The notes: a model not told the origin generated them from the letters alone. DNA of 64,000 bases from Methylacidiphilum infernorum V4 (GCF_000019665.1 NC_010794.1:1364001-1428000); one strand, 5' to 3'; shown: positions 22,186 to 31,059, numbered from the stretch's first letter. Numbers and translations: made by a program.

Positions 22186-22818
22186 TTGATTTATCTCCTC
22201 TGTTTTCCTATTTTTCTTTCACCATTTTCCCTTCCCATGAAAACGAACATTAAAGAACTTACCCAGTCCATAATCAATATGATTCCCTCCTCTTTAAGGT
22301 TTAACTCCCAGGACGAATCCCTTTTTCAAAGAATTAAGCCTTTCCACGAGAGACTCTCAGAGAAGATTGTCAAGGGATTCTATGATACCCTGTTCGGGTA
22401 TCCTTCGACCCAGTCCATTTTCAACCCCGGAGAACGACCCTTAAGGGAACCCGACTTGCAACGCTGGTGGCAGAGAACCATAACGGGTCCTTTTGACCTT
22501 AACTACTGGGCTTGGCAATCGGCGGTCGGGGTAATCCACATTAAAAGGAAAGTCAAAAACCCGATGATGCTTTCCATTTGGGGTTGGATCTTGATGACCC
22601 TTCAAAAAGAATTTTCATCTCACTTTTCTCCCCAGGAAACCTTTGAATTCATGGAATCCTGGCAAAGACTTGCCATAACCGTTGAATCCCTTATCGCCGA
22701 AAGCTACCTCCATAATTATATCGTCGCATTAGCCCAATCCACGGGAACCGAGTTGGCCCTCTTGGACAGGCTCGTAGCCATTGAAGTGGCAGACATCGAT
22801 CCGAAAAAGCTAGAATAG
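22186..22818 (+). CDS. Protoglobin-like single-domain globin
   Basis: The 210 residues (about 193 from a better in-frame ATG at 22237, MKTNIKEL) form an all-helical globin of the protoglobin/globin-coupled-sensor type. The FYDTLFGYPSTQSIF segment fits the B/E helices. The block GPFDLNYWAWQSAVGVIHIK carries the candidate proximal haem histidine, matching the IGxxHxxx pattern of protoglobins. No signalling domain is attached. Related acidophilic methanotrophs are known for several unusual globins; binding of O2 or NO is a family expectation. It follows pntB by about 50 bases but is not clearly in the same operon. Confidence 0.75.
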   Translation: MIYLLCFPIFLSPFSLPMKTNIKELTQSIINMIPSSLRFNSQDESLFQRIKPFHERLSEKIVKGFYDTLFGYPSTQSIFNPGERPLREPDLQRWWQRTITGPFDLNYWAWQSAVGVIHIKRKVKNPMMLSIWGWILMTLQKEFSSHFSPQETFEFMESWQRLAITVESLIAESYLHNYIVALAQSTGTELALLDRLVAIEVADIDPKKLE

Positions 22819-22826
22819 CTTTCTTT

Positions 22827-23663
22827 TCAGCTCTCTACCTTTATGTCCTTGTAGGCAGCAATCCCAATGAGTCCAAAGGGAAGGGATTGAATAAAAAGAA
22901 AACCGACCACGAGGCCAAGACGGAATAGGAAAGAGAGCCGGGGGGTCTGTTGGTCCAGGGACCAGATGAGATAACGCGAAATTAATTCTACCGATCTGGT
23001 GTCGTAATAAGTATTCCCTCCTTGGTTAAAAAAGCTATCCATGTCTTTCTTCGCCAGCTCTTCGGCTCTCCTGATATCTAAATGGAGGACAGCCCCAAGA
23101 AACGGATGCAAGGCAAGGAAATTTTCCGCAGCCTGGGTTGTGAAAACAGTCGCCACGGCCAACCGGCTTTGAAATTGAGTAGCCGGAATAAAATGAGGAT
23201 CGGTCCACGCATTAGGATGTTCAATGCCTAGGTTCCAAACCTTGTTCCTTGCCAGGTTAAATGTTTCATCTCTCCATTTCACATCCAGGATTAATTGGGC
23301 TCCCCACCGACTTACTTGATCCCGGGCTGCGGTTTTGGCAAATCCAAGGCATACAAAAGTCGAAACAAAAACAAAGCTAAACAAAGAGGCCACGGCACAA
23401 AAGCAATGATGAAGAAGTTTGACTCTAAAGGTTCTATTCCACAGCAAGGTATAGTGGCTCGCCAACCACCAGCAACAACCGGCTACAAACAGGGAAAAAA
23501 CGAGAGTAAGCCAAAAAAAAAGAGGCCGCTGGCCCAAAAACAGTTGGAAGGACTCTTTTAACAAGTTTAGACCATCAGCCATCATAATTTGAAAAGAGTT
23601 TTTCTTTATCCTATCCAACGACTTTAAAACTTTATCCCCTACCCATGAACCATCCCGTCTCAA
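22827..23663 (-). CDS. Membrane protein of the tubulin-like locus, paralogue of 30286-31059
   Basis: The 278 residues have two hydrophobic segments in the N-terminal half (about 47-72 and 85-112), a soluble middle part and a C-terminal helix (about 245-270) ending in GLIGIAAYKDIKVES. The protein at the other end of the cluster ends SLIGWAAYRDIRIRT and shares SxYTLLWN.xFR...LHH.FC, so the two are paralogues with the same topology. No known family was recognised. It is the last gene of the five-gene minus-strand cluster. The true start may lie further in, at MMADGLNLL. Confidence 0.7.
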   Translation of the reverse strand: MRRDGSWVGDKVLKSLDRIKKNSFQIMMADGLNLLKESFQLFLGQRPLFFWLTLVFSLFVAGCCWWLASHYTLLWNRTFRVKLLHHCFCAVASLFSFVFVSTFVCLGFAKTAARDQVSRWGAQLILDVKWRDETFNLARNKVWNLGIEHPNAWTDPHFIPATQFQSRLAVATVFTTQAAENFLALHPFLGAVLHLDIRRAEELAKKDMDSFFNQGGNTYYDTRSVELISRYLIWSLDQQTPRLSFLFRLGLVVGFLFIQSLPFGLIGIAAYKDIKVES

Positions 23664-23786
23664 GGAATTGAAGAGGCAAGCCCAATATGGAATAGCCCAA
23701 TTTTTACCTTCTTTTTGTCAATTCCTCAACACATGCAACATGGCTTTTTTGAAAGATCTACCCGTACTTAGCAGTCTTAAAAAAAA

Positions 23787-25400
23787 TCAAGGGAAAGGAG
23801 GGGTTGAAGGCGGCGATTGAGGAGGGTAGGCAGGATAAGGGGAGGGTTGAGAAGGGAAAGAAGGGGGAGGAAAAGATTGAGATCCCTGGGCCGGAGGCCC
23901 ATAACCTCCAGGAGGAGCAACGGGAGTTTGAGGATAGCCGGGATAAGCGGGCTGTGGAGTGGATGCAAAAGGAGGGGGCTGAGGAATATTTACTGGAGAA
24001 GCCGGGATGGAAGCGGGAACAGGAGCTTGTTGGGGAGAAAGAGGGGAATAAGGAGAAGAGGGATTCAACCCGGATAAAGCAAGCCTACGGTTTTCGGCAT
24101 TTTGCCTGAGTTCTTGGGCATATTGCTCAAGAAGTTTTTCTTTTTCTTCCCTGGCCCTGGCTTCAGCCCTTCTTACCGCAGCATGATAGGCAGCCACTCT
24201 TGCACGCCAGATCTTTTTTTCTTTTTCATACGAATACAACCCTCCCCCAAGTCCACCAAGTATAACTCCTCCCAGTGCACCCCATCCTGCCCCGGTAGGT
24301 CCACCCGCAAGCCCTCCAATCAATGCACCTCCTCCTGCACCTATAGCCGCCCCTTCAGCCGCTGTCGTCGGTCCACCCGTTCCCGGCTGTAAAAACTTGG
24401 GTTTTCTTCCCGGCCCGGATATTCCAGACCGGGCCTCTTCCGCGGCTTGGGCTGCCTGTTTATCGATATCCCTAAGCCGGTTGGCATAATCGGTCCATTG
24501 GCTTTCTTCCTGCCTCATTGCCGAAGATAAATCAAAAGCATTACGCAAAACGATCTTTTCTACCCCGGGTGCCGTCACTTCTTGGAGTTGATTCCAGGGA
24601 AAAGTATTGTTTTGATTTAGAAACTTCCAACTTTTATCCGGCTGCTCAACCGCTTTCGTTTTCCAAGAAAAAGTCAGGTCTTGGTTGGCTTCAAAGGCCG
24701 TCCGCTTCTGGTCCTGGTAATAAGTCATTCCCGGTTCTTGATCCAGGGTAAAAAGGAGATCCTTGAGGTGGGATTTCGCCCAAGGCTTGAGATCTTTGGG
24801 AACGGCTTCCAACCGTTCTTTCCCGGGAAGAATAGGTCCAACTGGCACCCAGTACAAAGCGGTATTGGGTCGCACGGTGACATCGTATTCTATAATCCAA
24901 TTGCCATCTTGATCTTTAACCGCCGTTTTTTCCTTGATGTCTATAAAATCAAATCCCCTAGGCAGTTGAGCCTTAACCGCTTCTTCAGCTTGAAGGACTG
25001 TGGGCTTTTTTACAAAAGAATTGAATAAGCCACCGGATCCACTGAATAAAGACTTTCCAGCGGTAAATAAAAAAATAAAGACTAGGGCTAAAGCCACAAC
25101 CGCTCCTGCAGCCCAAAGCGGGATAAAAGATCGTTTTACGCTCCTTTGAGCTATGGCTTCAAGAGGACGCCGACAGGAAGGACAAACAAAATCTTCATCC
25201 TTTGGAATTTCTAAGAGTTTACCCGCTTCCTCGCATTCCCCAAAATTAATACATCTTCCTTTTCGAACAGAGGGAGCCTGTTTATTGGACTTAGGCTTTT
25301 GTCGGTCGAAAGAAAATTCCTCTTCAATATTATTCGTTTTCCCATTATCATTGTTTGTCAGGGAAGACCTTTTAATAGGATCATTAAAGCTGATTCTCAT
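23787..25400 (-). CDS. Zinc-ribbon membrane protein with glycine-zipper and Pro-rich tail
   Basis: The 537 residues begin with a Cys4 zinc ribbon (CINFGEC...FVCPSCRRPL, about residues 49-80) shared with the PBP-OmpA protein upstream. One transmembrane helix (about 93-115), a periplasmic domain with WIIEYDVTV and WSFKTK-like strands (about 130-300) and a glycine zipper (GAAIGAGGGALIGGLAGG, about 345-385) follow. A charged helix then leads into a Pro/Gln/Tyr-rich tail of about 90 residues. Glycine zippers insert in membranes or oligomerise. No family name can be given for the whole protein. It is part of the tubulin-like operon. Confidence 0.75.
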   Translation of the reverse strand: MRISFNDPIKRSSLTNNDNGKTNNIEEEFSFDRQKPKSNKQAPSVRKGRCINFGECEEAGKLLEIPKDEDFVCPSCRRPLEAIAQRSVKRSFIPLWAAGAVVALALVFIFLFTAGKSLFSGSGGLFNSFVKKPTVLQAEEAVKAQLPRGFDFIDIKEKTAVKDQDGNWIIEYDVTVRPNTALYWVPVGPILPGKERLEAVPKDLKPWAKSHLKDLLFTLDQEPGMTYYQDQKRTAFEANQDLTFSWKTKAVEQPDKSWKFLNQNNTFPWNQLQEVTAPGVEKIVLRNAFDLSSAMRQEESQWTDYANRLRDIDKQAAQAAEEARSGISGPGRKPKFLQPGTGGPTTAAEGAAIGAGGGALIGGLAGGPTGAGWGALGGVILGGLGGGLYSYEKEKKIWRARVAAYHAAVRRAEARAREEKEKLLEQYAQELRQNAENRRLALSGLNPSSPYSPLSPQQAPVPASIPASPVNIPQPPPFASTPQPAYPGYPQTPVAPPGGYGPPAQGSQSFPPPSFPSQPSPYPAYPPQSPPSTPPFP

Positions 25401-25487
25401 GTCATTCTAAAATCCCATTTTAGAATAAAATAATTTATTAAAAATGTCACAAAAAAATTAAAAAAATTAAGCCTCAAGTCTTTCTCC

Positions 25488-27074
25488 TTATTTCTTTTTT
25501 GGACAGAGCCAGACTTCTACGCGCCTATTTTTTTCTCTTCCTTCTTCGGACTCATTTGAGGCTACGGGCATTTCTTCACCCGCCCCAGCCACGTTAACAA
25601 CCGTAATGCCTCGACTTTCCAGGGCTTTAGCAACACTTTGGGCTCTTTCCAAAGAAAGACCTAGATTATAGGTATGACTTCCCACATTATCCGTAAAACC
25701 GATCAAGAGAACCCCTTTATCGCTATTCTCAGCTTCGGAAAGAAATCGGGCCAACCTTTGAATATCGACTCTTCCCTTGTTATCCAATTCCGCCGTTCCA
25801 AAGCGAAACCGGATATCGAAAGGGACCCTTGTCGAATCTTTCACCAAGGTTCGATACCTTGTCGAGGCATCGGCAGGAATGGGTTCATTCGAGAGCGGGC
25901 TGAGATTAACTAAAGATCTTTCTTCCTTGAGTCCGCTGCCTACAAAACCCCGAGAAGAAACGACCTTTTGACCTGCATCCGACAAAATGTATTGGATAAA
26001 TGCTTGAATCCATGTCGAGGAACCGTTCGGAGAAACATAGAAATAGATCCGGTAAGATAAAGGATATGCTTCGGTCCCAATGGTCAACGGAGTAGGCTTG
26101 AATGCCACTGCCCCTTTCATGTAGAGGGAAAGAATTTTCACAGAACTGACGGTAGCCGACAACCTCGAAAAATCCTCTATCCCTAAAATTCCGGGATCTT
26201 TCGATATCCTTTTCTTGAACTCATCTCCAGGGATAGCTTTTTGCTCTTTTCCATTCTGTTGCAGGCCACCTCCAAAAAGGTTGGCGAAATTTTGCCAACC
26301 ACAAAAGCTTTTTTCAGCCGGAACGACCGGCATGATTTTTCCTTTAAATCCTTGGGTTAATTCTTTCCAATCGGTAAGCTGTCCGGAAAAGATTTTTTGC
26401 AATTGTTCTAGGGACAAGGAATCTATAGGATTTTGACCGTTGACGAAAACCACCACTCCGCTTTGCCCGATAACATATTCATGGTCGGAAGAAGTCATAT
26501 CGAAGGGGAATCTTTTCAATTCTTCAGGGGTAACCTTCCGGCAGCAAAAGAGCCCCACCGGTTCCTTCATCGAAGCCATCCGCATAAACCCGGAATTTGG
26601 AGACTCGGTAAAAATTTTAATCAAGCCCTTGGCTTTCCCGCCCGGCAGTTCACACGCCACTTCGCTTTCCTTTGGATCGTGTTCAATCCACTCCGGGTTC
26701 TTCCCTTTTACCACGTCGTTTAAAAAACCTAAAACCAAGGGACGAACCAGGCTTTCCACAAGTCTATTCTCACCGCTAAGAACAAAAAGAATTTGCAACT
26801 GGGAAGTAGCCAAGCCCATCCCCTTTTTTTGTTCCTTGGAACTAAAGAAATGGCTACCCAAGACAATGATGATTCCCGGCAAAACCAAGGCTATAAAAAG
26901 CAAAGGAAAAAAAAACTTCTTTCCTTTCTTTTTGTTCCACTCCTCAAGAGGGATCAGCGGACTGCCACAATCCGGGCAGACAAATTCCTTGTCCCCGGGA
27001 ACTTCAATAACGCTGCGGCGGTCGGCCTTGTTCGGACAATTCCCAAAGTTATTGCAGATCCCTTTTCTTATCAT
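25488..27074 (-). CDS. Zinc-ribbon / PstS-like binding protein / OmpA fusion
   Basis: Domains in order: a Cys4 zinc ribbon (CNNFGNC...FVCPDCGSPL, residues 6-42), a transmembrane helix (about 53-73), a periplasmic substrate-binding-protein-like domain of the phosphate-binding class (about 90-380, with VVFVNGQNPIDSLSLEQLQKIFSG) and a C-terminal OmpA/peptidoglycan-binding domain (about 405-525, LLIGFTDNVGSHTYNLGLSLERAQ, ending REKNRRVEVWL). The OmpA part should anchor the protein to peptidoglycan. The gene ends 413 codons of shared architecture before the next and lies 17 bases after the tubulin-like gene. Ligand unknown. Confidence 0.85.
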   Translation of the reverse strand: MIRKGICNNFGNCPNKADRRSVIEVPGDKEFVCPDCGSPLIPLEEWNKKKGKKFFFPLLFIALVLPGIIIVLGSHFFSSKEQKKGMGLATSQLQILFVLSGENRLVESLVRPLVLGFLNDVVKGKNPEWIEHDPKESEVACELPGGKAKGLIKIFTESPNSGFMRMASMKEPVGLFCCRKVTPEELKRFPFDMTSSDHEYVIGQSGVVVFVNGQNPIDSLSLEQLQKIFSGQLTDWKELTQGFKGKIMPVVPAEKSFCGWQNFANLFGGGLQQNGKEQKAIPGDEFKKRISKDPGILGIEDFSRLSATVSSVKILSLYMKGAVAFKPTPLTIGTEAYPLSYRIYFYVSPNGSSTWIQAFIQYILSDAGQKVVSSRGFVGSGLKEERSLVNLSPLSNEPIPADASTRYRTLVKDSTRVPFDIRFRFGTAELDNKGRVDIQRLARFLSEAENSDKGVLLIGFTDNVGSHTYNLGLSLERAQSVAKALESRGITVVNVAGAGEEMPVASNESEEGREKNRRVEVWLCPKKK

Positions 27075-27091
27075 CGGGTTTTTTGACCAAA

Positions 27092-30000
27092 TCAGATTTC
27101 TCCCCGGATCCTTTTTATAGCCAGTTTACCCCAATCTGGAAGTTTTTTAGCCCTAGGGTCGGTTGGAGGAATCGATTGCCTTAGGCCGTTAACCAACTTC
27201 ACAATCGCACTTTCCGCCGCTTTCCTTTGAGATTCAATTTTATACTCAGGATTGCTAAGAAGAAGAGCTACTTTCTCTTCCAGCAACAGCCCTTCTGCTT
27301 CTCGAATATTGGCGAGGGTTTCAGAAAAAGTTTCTCCTCCAAGATATACAGGCTGGTCAAACCCATATTCATCTTTCCGCATAAAGCCCAATTGAAATCC
27401 TCCCGTATCGGTTTGACATTTTTGAACCAGTTCTCTTTCATTACCGCCGTCATCTTTTTCTTTAAGAACCATCCCTAGAAGGAGGGCCGGGGCTATCCTC
27501 TCTTCCATTTCCGAGCGAGACGGGACGAAAAGAGAAGGGAGGAGTTGCCCATCCCCTTCGATATGGAGTTCCATCCTCGCCCTTTTCGAATCCGGGCCAC
27601 TGACCCTTTCCAAGTATTTTGATTTAAGAAAAAAAACAGGCTGAACAATGCGCAAGGGGAACAGGTTGGTTATACTCACAAGAATAATTTCGTTCGGCCT
27701 GTTGTCATTTTCTATAAACTCCTTGCTCGGATTACGAATACATTCAAAAAAGACTTCTCTTAAAAGTTTCAAATAATCTTCCATTTCGGCTGCCTTGGGC
27801 AGTATGACGGTAAAATTGGACACTCCAATTTGAGCAGCAGGATTGATTCCCGGTCCCGATCTTCTCTTTTCATCCGCGTTAAAGAGCAGATAATTACCCG
27901 CCGCTTTGACAACCCCATCCAAGTAAAGTCTTAAGGATTGCCTATCCGAATATCTATCCTTGAGTTTTTCAATAATACTTACCCCGATCAACCGTTCGGC
28001 TGCGGTTTGGACCAAGTTGTTGTGGGCGATCTTCGCATTTTCCATGCATTGTTTTTCCAGGGTATCCAAAAAGACGGTCTTTGAAACCCTCTCGTTAAGG
28101 GTCTTAAAATCGAGTCTTTCTCCCAGTTTTTCGGCCAGCGCCGTACGCACTCTCTGGGTCTGCGTCGTAGCTTCCTTCTGATCCTTGATTAATCTTTTTG
28201 TTACGCTTTTAACAAGCTCCGGATCGTAAAACCGGATAACCTGCTTTCTTAAGTCGATTATTCCTCCCTGGTCTGCACATCGAGCTGCAATCTGGTCTTC
28301 GAACGTTTTTAAGGCTTCGGCGATCATCGAGGCGGCCTTATCCACATCGGCTTTTAACAAAACGATTTCTTCGATAATGACAGGCAGGAATTTCTTGGCA
28401 AACTGCCAACCTTCGATCGCCGTTCGGCTAGAATAGAGATCTTGCAAAACAACCGAGGCCGCATCAAAAAGCCTCTTTCTTTTCCCGAACATATCCGAAA
28501 TTAATCCAATCTTAGCCCATTCTTTTTCCTGATCCTTTAATTTCTTAGCCAATTCTTCTTCCCTAGGCTTCAGTTTGGTTATTTCTTCTTCAATCCGGTC
28601 ATACCTCCCCTTAAGATGGGTGATCAAGGCTCCAAGAAGGAGGCTGATCTCATGGGCAGATTTCGTTCCATTGATCCACTCCGAAAAAAGTTCCCGCTCC
28701 AACCTTTGACGTATCTCCCTGGCCCTTTCTCTCGTCGATTGCCCCACCGTCTCGTAAAAAGCTTTGACCCCCTGTCCCCTATATTGCTCCAGGAACCTGG
28801 CGTCTAAAAAACCCTTCATCCGGTCCAGCCACTTATCCGCCGGATCCTTTTCCTGGGTATACTGTTTAAAATTCGTCGTTGCATTCATCCAATAACGACT
28901 TATCGGCTGCCATTTCGTTCCTGACCCATCCGATTCGAGAATCGGGGCTGAAAGAATAAAATGCTCGTCGGTCAGCATCCATCTTTCAAGCTGTTCAGGA
29001 CTACTCACATAGCTGACCATGTCTAAATTGCGGGGATCGGCCAAGAATCCATCCGTTTCCGACCAATTATTATAACGCAGTTGCAGGGCTGCTTGCCTGG
29101 CAAACTGGAAGGTCAAGTATTCAGCAATCTCGGGTTCCGGAACCGCTATTCTTTTGACCCCGAAGGTCAAAAATCTTTTCGAGCGGACCGGTTCATTGAG
29201 GCCTGGTAAAGTTTCAGGGGAATTATCGCCGTTCTCGGCATTTTCTGATCTCCCCAGCGACTCCCAGTTAATATTTCTTACGGTGACTATTTTTTGGTAA
29301 AGGAAATCGGCCAAGATATTGGGAATATCCTCTGCAACATCCACGGCAAGGCCATTTTCATTAAAGTTGGTAAAAAGGTAACAACCGTTGAAAGGATCTT
29401 TAAGCCCCTCCAGTTTCTTCCCATCTCCTGCTATATCACAGGGACTAAACTTGCCGATGCTAAGCGCGTTGAGTTCAACCAAGGCGGCGTAGCCGTTGGC
29501 ATGGTAGTTACCGGTATTCCAATTGGGTTTAGGATGTTCTTCGGGGAGCAGGGTATAAAGAATAATCCTATATCCAAGGGGATCAGGATAATTTTTCCGG
29601 ATTTGGCATATACAATCGATGAGTGTGCCACTGCCCGTTCCCCCAGCCAACCCACAACAAACATGGAAAGTGACATTTTGTTGACCTCCTTTTTGCATTT
29701 CGTTAACCAGGTGGGTAAGCTTGCTGCAAAATTCATCGGCATGACTGGCGAAGAGAAATCTTCCCAGCCTTCTTTTCTGTCCTCCCTTGGCGTCTCCAAC
29801 GATGCTATTGAGAATATCTTTCCATACATTTTTATCGCCGATCCACGGTTGAATTCCCGGGTAGCTGGGCAGATCGTCAAGAATGGCGGCAAGATTCGAA
29901 GATTTAATGAGAAGTTGACTGGTAGGAGGAATCTGAACGCTTTGACCGAGAACTTTCCAACTCGGATCATCAAGCCGCATCAGCTCGTCACTGGAATCGA

Positions 30001-30130
30001 CATACAAATAGGACAGCCTAATGTCGGGAGGATCAACCTTTCGGAATTCCTGGAAAATGGTTTTGCGGAAAGCCCGGATGACTTTCCCTCCCGTGCCTCC
30101 TAACCCGATGATGAAATGATTGGCATTCAT
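27092..30130 (-). CDS. Large tubulin/FtsZ-like GTPase (tubulin_2 type)
   Basis: The 1012-residue protein carries two hallmark nucleotide-binding loops of the tubulin/FtsZ superfamily: GLGGTGGK at residues 9-16 and AGGTGSGT at 162-169. A helix with YAALVELNAL lies near residue 220, where the T6-like region is expected. The rest is a long helical extension, including a coiled coil at about 530-580, that FtsZ lacks. It therefore belongs to the large FtsZ-like families predicted from comparative genomics to act in membrane remodelling. It is encoded with zinc-ribbon/OmpA and glycine-zipper membrane proteins. GTP binding is well supported by motifs; polymerisation and function are inference. Confidence 0.85.
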   Translation of the reverse strand: MNANHFIIGLGGTGGKVIRAFRKTIFQEFRKVDPPDIRLSYLYVDSSDELMRLDDPSWKVLGQSVQIPPTSQLLIKSSNLAAILDDLPSYPGIQPWIGDKNVWKDILNSIVGDAKGGQKRRLGRFLFASHADEFCSKLTHLVNEMQKGGQQNVTFHVCCGLAGGTGSGTLIDCICQIRKNYPDPLGYRIILYTLLPEEHPKPNWNTGNYHANGYAALVELNALSIGKFSPCDIAGDGKKLEGLKDPFNGCYLFTNFNENGLAVDVAEDIPNILADFLYQKIVTVRNINWESLGRSENAENGDNSPETLPGLNEPVRSKRFLTFGVKRIAVPEPEIAEYLTFQFARQAALQLRYNNWSETDGFLADPRNLDMVSYVSSPEQLERWMLTDEHFILSAPILESDGSGTKWQPISRYWMNATTNFKQYTQEKDPADKWLDRMKGFLDARFLEQYRGQGVKAFYETVGQSTRERAREIRQRLERELFSEWINGTKSAHEISLLLGALITHLKGRYDRIEEEITKLKPREEELAKKLKDQEKEWAKIGLISDMFGKRKRLFDAASVVLQDLYSSRTAIEGWQFAKKFLPVIIEEIVLLKADVDKAASMIAEALKTFEDQIAARCADQGGIIDLRKQVIRFYDPELVKSVTKRLIKDQKEATTQTQRVRTALAEKLGERLDFKTLNERVSKTVFLDTLEKQCMENAKIAHNNLVQTAAERLIGVSIIEKLKDRYSDRQSLRLYLDGVVKAAGNYLLFNADEKRRSGPGINPAAQIGVSNFTVILPKAAEMEDYLKLLREVFFECIRNPSKEFIENDNRPNEIILVSITNLFPLRIVQPVFFLKSKYLERVSGPDSKRARMELHIEGDGQLLPSLFVPSRSEMEERIAPALLLGMVLKEKDDGGNERELVQKCQTDTGGFQLGFMRKDEYGFDQPVYLGGETFSETLANIREAEGLLLEEKVALLLSNPEYKIESQRKAAESAIVKLVNGLRQSIPPTDPRAKKLPDWGKLAIKRIRGEI

Positions 30131-30285
30131 TTTGGCTCAAGTTTCATCTCTTTTCTTTGCATTTTTAATCCAGTCACAAAGCATGGTATCAACCCCCCCC
30201 TTGTTATTTTTTCATGAGTCAATCCAAAAACAAGAAATTTTTTTTTCCAAGGGAGAAAGGAAAAGAGGGGCTTAAAGTCAGGGTC

Positions 30286-31059
30286 TTAGGTCCTTATGCG
30301 TATATCCCTGTATGCCGCCCATCCGATCAAGCTAAAAGGAACAAGTTGAAAGAGAAAAAAAAGAATGACTAAAAGGCTTCGAGACAAAACGACCAGCTTG
30401 CCCATTTGGGCATCCAGTATAGAGATAAGATAATAGGTGACCACGTTTAATGCCCTATCCACCGGGTAAACTTGGGGGCTGTTCAAAAAAAAGTTATTCA
30501 TGTCTTGAAGCAAGACCCGGCTCGGAATGGCAATATCCGGACGGATGATTAAAGAAAGAGCCGGGTGGTTTTTTGTAAAATCATTGGCAGCATTCCTTGC
30601 ATAGATATCGGCAACGATAGCCCTGGAGTAAGGATCGACCAAGGGCACAAACTGCGCTTGAGGAGGAGGGAGAAACCTTTCTCTGCCGGCAGCCCTTACC
30701 GTCTCGTAAGCCTGGGCCAACGTCCGATCTTCCCACCGGGAATCCCTCAAGAGGTTAGCGGCCCAGCTCAAAACAACCGTCTTCCCTACCTCCTTCGAAA
30801 ATTTCAAGGAAAAAAACAGGACGACAAATAGGGTTGTCGCCACCGCAGCCAGGCCACAAAAAAAATGATGGAGTGGGGTAGCTCTAAACTTGACATTCCA
30901 CAAAAGGGTGTAGGTACTGGCAACAATCCAACAAAGGGCACCTAGGGCTATTCCAATAGCTAGAGAATACCAAAAAACGCCCAGCTCTTTAGAAAGCATG
31001 TAATGAAAAGAAGAATTCAGAAGCCAGTTGAATATCTTCAGGTAGATCATTTCACACAA
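30286..31059 (-). CDS. Membrane protein of the tubulin-like locus, paralogue of 22827-23663
   Basis: The 257 residues have two N-terminal hydrophobic segments (about 28-52 and 70-95), a soluble middle part and a C-terminal helix (about 225-248). Shared blocks with the other bracket gene include STYTLLWNVKFR, LHHFFC and SLIGWAAYRDIRIR. This is the first gene of the cluster; 155 bases separate it from the tubulin-like gene. No known family was recognised. The topology suggests an inner-membrane partner of the GTPase complex. Confidence 0.7.
   Translation of the reverse strand: MCEMIYLKIFNWLLNSSFHYMLSKELGVFWYSLAIGIALGALCWIVASTYTLLWNVKFRATPLHHFFCGLAAVATTLFVVLFFSLKFSKEVGKTVVLSWAANLLRDSRWEDRTLAQAYETVRAAGRERFLPPPQAQFVPLVDPYSRAIVADIYARNAANDFTKNHPALSLIIRPDIAIPSRVLLQDMNNFFLNSPQVYPVDRALNVVTYYLISILDAQMGKLVVLSRSLLVILFFLFQLVPFSLIGWAAYRDIRIRT

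Follow-up and report, generated by a model that had tools for sequence, protein, structure and literature searches.

The hot-spring methanotroph Methylacidiphilum infernorum V4 carries, beside its pmo genes, a set of five open reading frames (ORFs) centred on a 1,012-residue GTPase that belongs, by its sequence profile, to the FtsZl1 (Tubulin_2) family. All five lie on the minus strand at positions 22827-31059 of the 64,000-nucleotide stretch NC_010794.1:1364001-1428000 (GCF_000019665.1; this whole stretch is called the window, and its numbering is used throughout), and together they encode the GTPase, two single-pass zinc-ribbon proteins and two proteins with three transmembrane (TM) segments. 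The set is near-core in the Methylacidiphilaceae sampled and is best regarded, from its distribution among genomes, as accessory. We tentatively propose, at slightly less than an even chance, that it encodes an accessory, membrane-spanning, peptidoglycan-anchored FtsZl1 GTPase assembly for sensing envelope stress or responding to it. The features on which this proposal draws are as follows (all on the minus strand).

22827..23663, minus: memB, an LWN...DI-family protein with three TM segments; orthologues make a true start near 23585 likely
23787..25400, minus: second zinc-ribbon membrane protein, 537 aa, with ribbon, TM helix, periplasmic domain, glycine zipper and Pro-rich tail
25173..25253, minus: zinc ribbon of the glycine-zipper protein, CINFGECEEAGKLLEIPKDEDFVCPSC
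25488..27074, minus: predicted membrane-spanning adaptor, 528 aa, with zinc ribbon, one TM helix, PstS-like periplasmic-binding-protein (PBP) domain and OmpA domain (Pfam PBP_like_2, 5.7e-18; OmpA, 5.5e-19)
25524..25811, minus: OmpA domain of the adaptor (Pfam OmpA), with GFTDNVGSHTYNLGLSLER and NRRVE motifs
26859..26915, minus: TM helix of the adaptor, residues 54-72, from a hydropathy scan; five Lys/Arg in 15 residues on its N side, N-in predicted
26967..27056, minus: zinc ribbon of the adaptor, CNNFGNCPNKADRRSVIEVPGDKEFVCPDC, N-terminal CX5C..CX2C
27092..30130, minus: FtsZl1 / Tubulin_2 GTPase, 1012 aa (Pfam PF13809, E = 2e-61), with N-terminal GTPase domain, long helical middle (probably coiled-coil) and C-terminal domain
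28277..28657, minus: long helical stretch of the GTPase, residues 492-618, probable coiled coil (low-confidence AlphaFold2 (AF2) model and family description)
29090..30112, minus: Tubulin_2 GTPase domain, residues 7-347 (Pfam PF13809)
29624-29647, minus: T4 loop AGGTGSGT, residues 162-169
30083-30106, minus: T1-type loop GLGGTGGK, residues 9-16
30286..31059, minus: memA, an LWN...DI-family protein with three TM segments; orthologues make a true start near 31050 likely

The FtsZl1 GTPase and its membrane partners

A preliminary description of the locus had pointed to two loop signatures of the tubulin/FtsZ fold in a protein about three times the length of FtsZ. Both loops were confirmed at the residues listed, with glycines invariant or nearly so among 14 homologues, and a profile search of 27092-30130, set beforehand as a check, bore out a tubulin/FtsZ-superfamily domain, the Tubulin_2 match scoring 208.7 bits against a Pfam cut-off of 27; a profile of the 14 homologues also reached beta-tubulin in the PDB, at its T4 region (E = 1e-3). 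The comparison of length stood only in part: the protein does have 1,012 residues, but it is FtsZ-like only in the first ~350, and its length is normal for the FtsZl1 family, described in the main text of the founding paper as ~1,000 aa with an extended coiled coil and a mostly helical C-terminal domain (PMC2875224). The matching helical middle was seen only in the low-confidence AF2 model, of which it is the best-scored region (pLDDT 70-82). The sequence lacks an export signal, and a whole-genome search (one contig of 2,287,145 bases) found a single Tubulin_2 copy.

In each of the two single-pass proteins the ribbon precedes a single TM helix whose N side has four or five Lys/Arg residues, so that the ribbon is predicted to face inwards and the remainder of the protein outwards. 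The adaptor is, as first described, a zinc-ribbon/PstS-like/OmpA fusion, and its predicted topology (cytoplasmic ribbon, one TM helix, periplasmic OmpA domain) could allow the cytoplasm-to-peptidoglycan coupling that had been suggested. Its OmpA motifs (GFTDNVG...N..LS..R and NRRVE) are intact and present in all 11 Methylacidiphilaceae sequences; the spacing of its ribbon is identical in nine of ten orthologues and slightly different in four Akkermansiaceae adaptors; and the PstS-like ligand-site motifs (GSNT and SGT) are degenerate in Methylacidiphilum adaptors. The ribbon part was matched in the V4 genome only by the two neighbouring genes, the remaining matches being to the OmpA domain. In the second protein the ribbon (kept in 13 of 13 sequences), single TM helix and Pro-rich tail agree with the preliminary description, although the glycine-zipper match was weak (NCBIfam, 2.2e-6 over residues 346-401; Pfam, E = 0.74). 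Its AF2 model was modest (pLDDT 62), and because the NTF2-like Foldseek matches to this model, including plastid PARC6, were not significant (E ~0.3), we claim no fold for the protein, the periplasmic domain of which is possibly NTF2-like. One Methylacidimicrobium genome carries a tandem duplication of this gene (L016, 14175-17627).

The two remaining proteins, memA and memB, are paralogous, as had been noted (36% identity, E = 6e-43), and a hydropathy scan gave three hydrophobic TM segments in each. Coordinates first given for the locus were nearly right, orthologues shifting only the memB and memA starts to the positions listed. Across the five genes pN/pS ranged from 0.06 to 0.38 (0.06-0.12 for the GTPase, up to 0.38 for its partners), values that indicate purifying selection at the sequence level, with the GTPase changing most slowly. 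Because of these ratios and the conserved gene set, the five genes are more than chance ORFs, and the five-gene locus is real.

Makarova and Koonin defined FtsZl1 in 2010, and the main text of their paper names M. infernorum V4 as a source of sequence for both alignment and tree, reports OmpA, vWA, kinase and GTPase genes as neighbours, and describes operons with a vWA protein, a GTPase or a protein kinase as frequent but not obligatory (PMC2875224). The window locus shares with that account the GTPase family, the length, the OmpA-type neighbours and, probably, the helical middle; unlike it, domain scans of the five proteins revealed no vWA, protein-kinase or P-loop GTPase partner, and the 2010 main text is without a ribbon adaptor, a conserved three-TM family or MotA/MotB-like genes. 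The suggestion that the component set was undescribed therefore needs qualification: the family was known, and this protein and OmpA neighbours were in the 2010 paper, but a description of the full set was not found in the open-licence literature, in which that paper is represented here by its main text. In a 2023 survey, Tubulin_2 proteins were treated as a group of their own, divergent and scattered.

Conservation, loss and relatives of the gene set

Thirteen Methylacidiphilaceae genomes, the window's own included, were searched, and 11 had a Tubulin_2 match above the cut-off (G002 and G005 did not). In all 11, FtsZl1, the ribbon/TM/PBP/OmpA gene and the ribbon/TM/glycine-zipper gene are consecutive, and a three-TM gene adjoins FtsZl1 in every case where the contig reaches far enough (that of L018 is too short). 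Two three-TM copies flank the set in Methylacidiphilum; Methylacidimicrobium has one divergent copy, with a second, more distant and unlinked copy in the two genomes checked. The set is kept at 64-84% FtsZl1 identity across these two genera with different flanking genes, so that the gene-neighbourhood survey found the neighbours to be conserved with the GTPase gene.

Both genomes without FtsZl1 also lack the three-TM protein. At the corresponding site of the close relative G002, between tRNA-Cys and the orthologue of the window's 22186-22818, there is no FtsZl1, memA, memB or OmpA adaptor gene; an intact 510-aa glycine-zipper/zinc-ribbon gene remains beside the pmo genes (L066, 8105-10700), and pmoA in the same stretch is 98.5% identical. 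Because G002 lost FtsZl1 and keeps pmo, the system is dispensable in a strain with methane-oxidation genes, and an essential role of the GTPase in division or methanotrophy was set aside. All nine Methylacidiphilaceae searched for it have a distinct, divergent FtsZ, which, together with the absences from G002 and G005, suggests from gene content that the set, though near-core in the family, is accessory.

The divergent FtsZ of the window's genome lies outside the window (G000:C1:1310468-1310944). Its FtsZ_C domain is undetectable, and FtsZ_C (PF12327) gave no match anywhere in this genome, whereas 13 of 14 controls matched. In four relatives (L113, L117-L119) the T4 loop of the divergent FtsZ reads GLGGGMGS, SLGGTTGS or GLAGATGA, and accelerated evolution of ftsZ was reportedly noted in the 2008 genome paper. 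FtsZl1 has the N-terminal GTPase fold signatures of canonical FtsZ but no FtsZ_C domain, for which reason identity with canonical FtsZ was set aside; a plasmid-partition (TubZ) role was set aside because the gene is chromosomal.

Among 195 genomes of what we take to be the Akkermansiaceae (this family name and the genus names of relatives' genomes are our reading of kinship), 15 had a Tubulin_2 match above the cut-off; counts refer to sampled genomes, and some Akkermansiaceae genomes are fragmented. FtsZl1 has a small membrane gene of the LWN type as its neighbour in all 11 same-clade loci sampled (L046-L048, L095, L097-L103). An initial profile comparison of these proteins with the memA family was marginal (80.9%, 28 columns), becoming strong once L095 and more Akkermansiaceae sequences were added (hhalign 96.8%, E = 2.6e-10, 223 columns, against 0.1-0.5% for MotA-like, MotB-like and reversed controls). 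The L095 membrane protein bridges the families (E = 4e-22 to memA), and we regard the three-TM proteins of the two families as homologous on these alignments. In L097-L102 the next gene has a Cys-rich N terminus, a TM helix and a C-terminal OmpA domain (cut off by the contig end in L101), and adaptors of the two families have a similar ribbon and the same OmpA motifs; the L048 locus runs off its contig. MotA-like and/or MotB-like (ZorA/ZorB-like) genes follow in L046, L047, L097-L100, L102 and L103, and in the MotB-like proteins the TM segment begins with a W-P-x-x-x-D-x-F motif whose aspartate is kept. PADLOC ZorB models matched L047 at 4e-25 and the other loci only modestly. In the FtsZl1 tree, a group made up of Methylacidiphilaceae, L095 and a Paraburkholderia megaplasmid protein (0.976) is sister to the Akkermansiaceae (0.998), with a joint support of 0.981; judged by sequence, one FtsZl1 clade carries this component set.

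Other relatives have other settings. On the Paraburkholderia megaplasmid (L049, 6824-14909), DUF4384 and glycine-zipper genes lie upstream of FtsZl1 (34% identity), and after it come a zinc-ribbon/TM/TPR gene and a TM2 gene. Outside the clade fall L043, L044, L045 and L052, where the neighbours of FtsZl1 include vWA-type genes (recognised in L044 and L045 by reading of the sequence); in L052, from a Meiothermus plasmid (1-16807), Tubulin_2 and vWA genes lie between DUF1156/Swt1-HEPN and BrxL in a defence-island-like setting. The vicinity of the Tubulin_2 gene on the Azospirillum plasmid p2 (L053) includes three OmpA genes, two of the caspase family and DUF4384. Phage records gave no match to the GTPase, and scans of viral contigs for Tubulin_2 homologues found six distant members only, each a short match encoded on an IMG/VR contig (L120-L125).

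A proposed envelope-stress role and its alternatives

An envelope-stress role is, by analogy, the most likely for the locus. We infer from its sequence that the GTPase may form a filament. The three-TM protein would seat the GTPase at the membrane, the zinc ribbons would lie on the cytoplasmic side and there bind the GTPase or its helical or C-terminal parts, and the OmpA domain of the adaptor would hold peptidoglycan. GTP binding and hydrolysis would drive assembly and disassembly, and we propose that wall position or damage could therefore be coupled to the state of the cytoplasmic GTPase. Such a device would be accessory, part of neither the division nor the methanotrophy machinery. A known analogue is Zorya, in which ZorA/ZorB likewise form an inner-membrane complex with a peptidoglycan-binding OmpA-type domain and a cytoplasmic extension, and which requires ZorB peptidoglycan binding and ion flow to function (PMC11890865). 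Most Akkermansiaceae loci carry ZorAB-like genes after FtsZl1, but the window locus is without a MotA/ZorA gene and the Zorya effectors, its cytoplasmic part is an FtsZ-superfamily GTPase, and identity with Zorya was set aside for want of a MotA gene. Several observations weigh against the envelope-stress reading: its basis is analogy; no MotA/MotB-like gene is among the five genes; the AF2 model of the GTPase, built from seven sequences at 64-84% identity, was uninformative (pLDDT 38.7, pTM 0.27); the partners in L046, L047 and L103 are OmpA-like or weakly so, with no ribbon found, and L095 has a ribbon without OmpA; and G002 keeps the glycine-zipper protein intact despite lacking the GTPase, so that this protein has, or once had, a separate role.

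A rival reading is an anti-phage or conflict system, in which a wall-anchored complex would detect infection and trigger assembly of a GTPase-driven effector. This reading, drawn by analogy with Zorya and with GTPase/tubulin conflict systems and unlikely though a serious contender, would fit the patchy distribution in Akkermansiaceae, the MotA/MotB (ZorA/ZorB)-like genes of most loci there, an integrase-like gene near L046, and the Meiothermus plasmid Tubulin_2 between Swt1/DUF1156 and BrxL genes, and tubulin members have been predicted in conflict systems (PMC7159879). However, the genes are near-core in Methylacidiphilaceae, the window locus is without a nuclease or other obvious effector gene, and the ZorA/ZorB similarity is modest in several loci. 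No PADLOC model matched the GTPase or the three-TM proteins, ZorB models matching only the OmpA part of 25488-27074. The GTPase-centric tubulin/HSP70 systems of Kaur et al. (2020; PMC7159879) share a coiled-coil-fused tubulin domain and membrane partners, but domain scans of the five proteins revealed none of the additional GTPase, HSP70, vWA or FNIII parts that those systems have.

It is also unlikely, despite the membrane-remodelling hypothesis drawn from genome context in the 2010 main text (PMC2875224), the several membrane partners at the locus and the tubular membranes seen in some V4 cells (PMC8498564), that the inner membrane is bent or drawn into tubules by a polymer of FtsZl1, as in the making of internal membranes. 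The locus is common, yet verrucomicrobial methanotrophs for the most part lack internal membranes (PMC8498564), and peptidoglycan anchoring suggests a wall link rather than invagination. The earlier idea that the GTPase shapes methanotroph membranes is further disfavoured because G002 keeps pmo without FtsZl1, either three-TM protein or the OmpA adaptor. Quite improbable is periplasmic ligand sensing or transport, with the PstS-like domain as input and FtsZl1 as cytoplasmic read-out: a 2010 reviewer did propose transport or signalling from PBP-like neighbours (PMC2875224, main text), the adaptor has a PBP domain, and ABC-transporter-like genes follow at L095 (by reading of the sequence), but the ligand-site motifs are degenerate in Methylacidiphilum, no PBP domain scored above the cut-off in the Akkermansiaceae adaptors scanned, and there are no transporter genes among the five at the window locus.

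For the envelope-stress reading, the predicted topology matters because a reviewer in 2010 had objected that FtsZl1, being cytoplasmic, would be unable to form a complex with OmpA proteins in the periplasm (PMC2875224, main text), an objection that an adaptor spanning the membrane would answer. As far as found in the open-licence literature, no FtsZl1 role has been established since; the adaptor and the three-TM protein would provide a concrete physical link across the membrane, with named candidate partners. The MotA/MotB-like pair in most Akkermansiaceae loci suggests that the same module can link to ion flow. It is a doubtful but specific prospect that these loci represent a hitherto undescribed class of membrane-spanning machine: an FtsZ-superfamily GTPase connected to peptidoglycan by way of zinc-ribbon/TM/OmpA adaptors and a dedicated three-TM protein, coupled in the Akkermansiaceae version to a MotAB/Zor-type ion-driven motor, and serving phage defence or a response to envelope damage. 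Should the motor genes of the Akkermansiaceae work with FtsZl1, one complex would unite a tubulin-type GTPase with an ion-driven motor.

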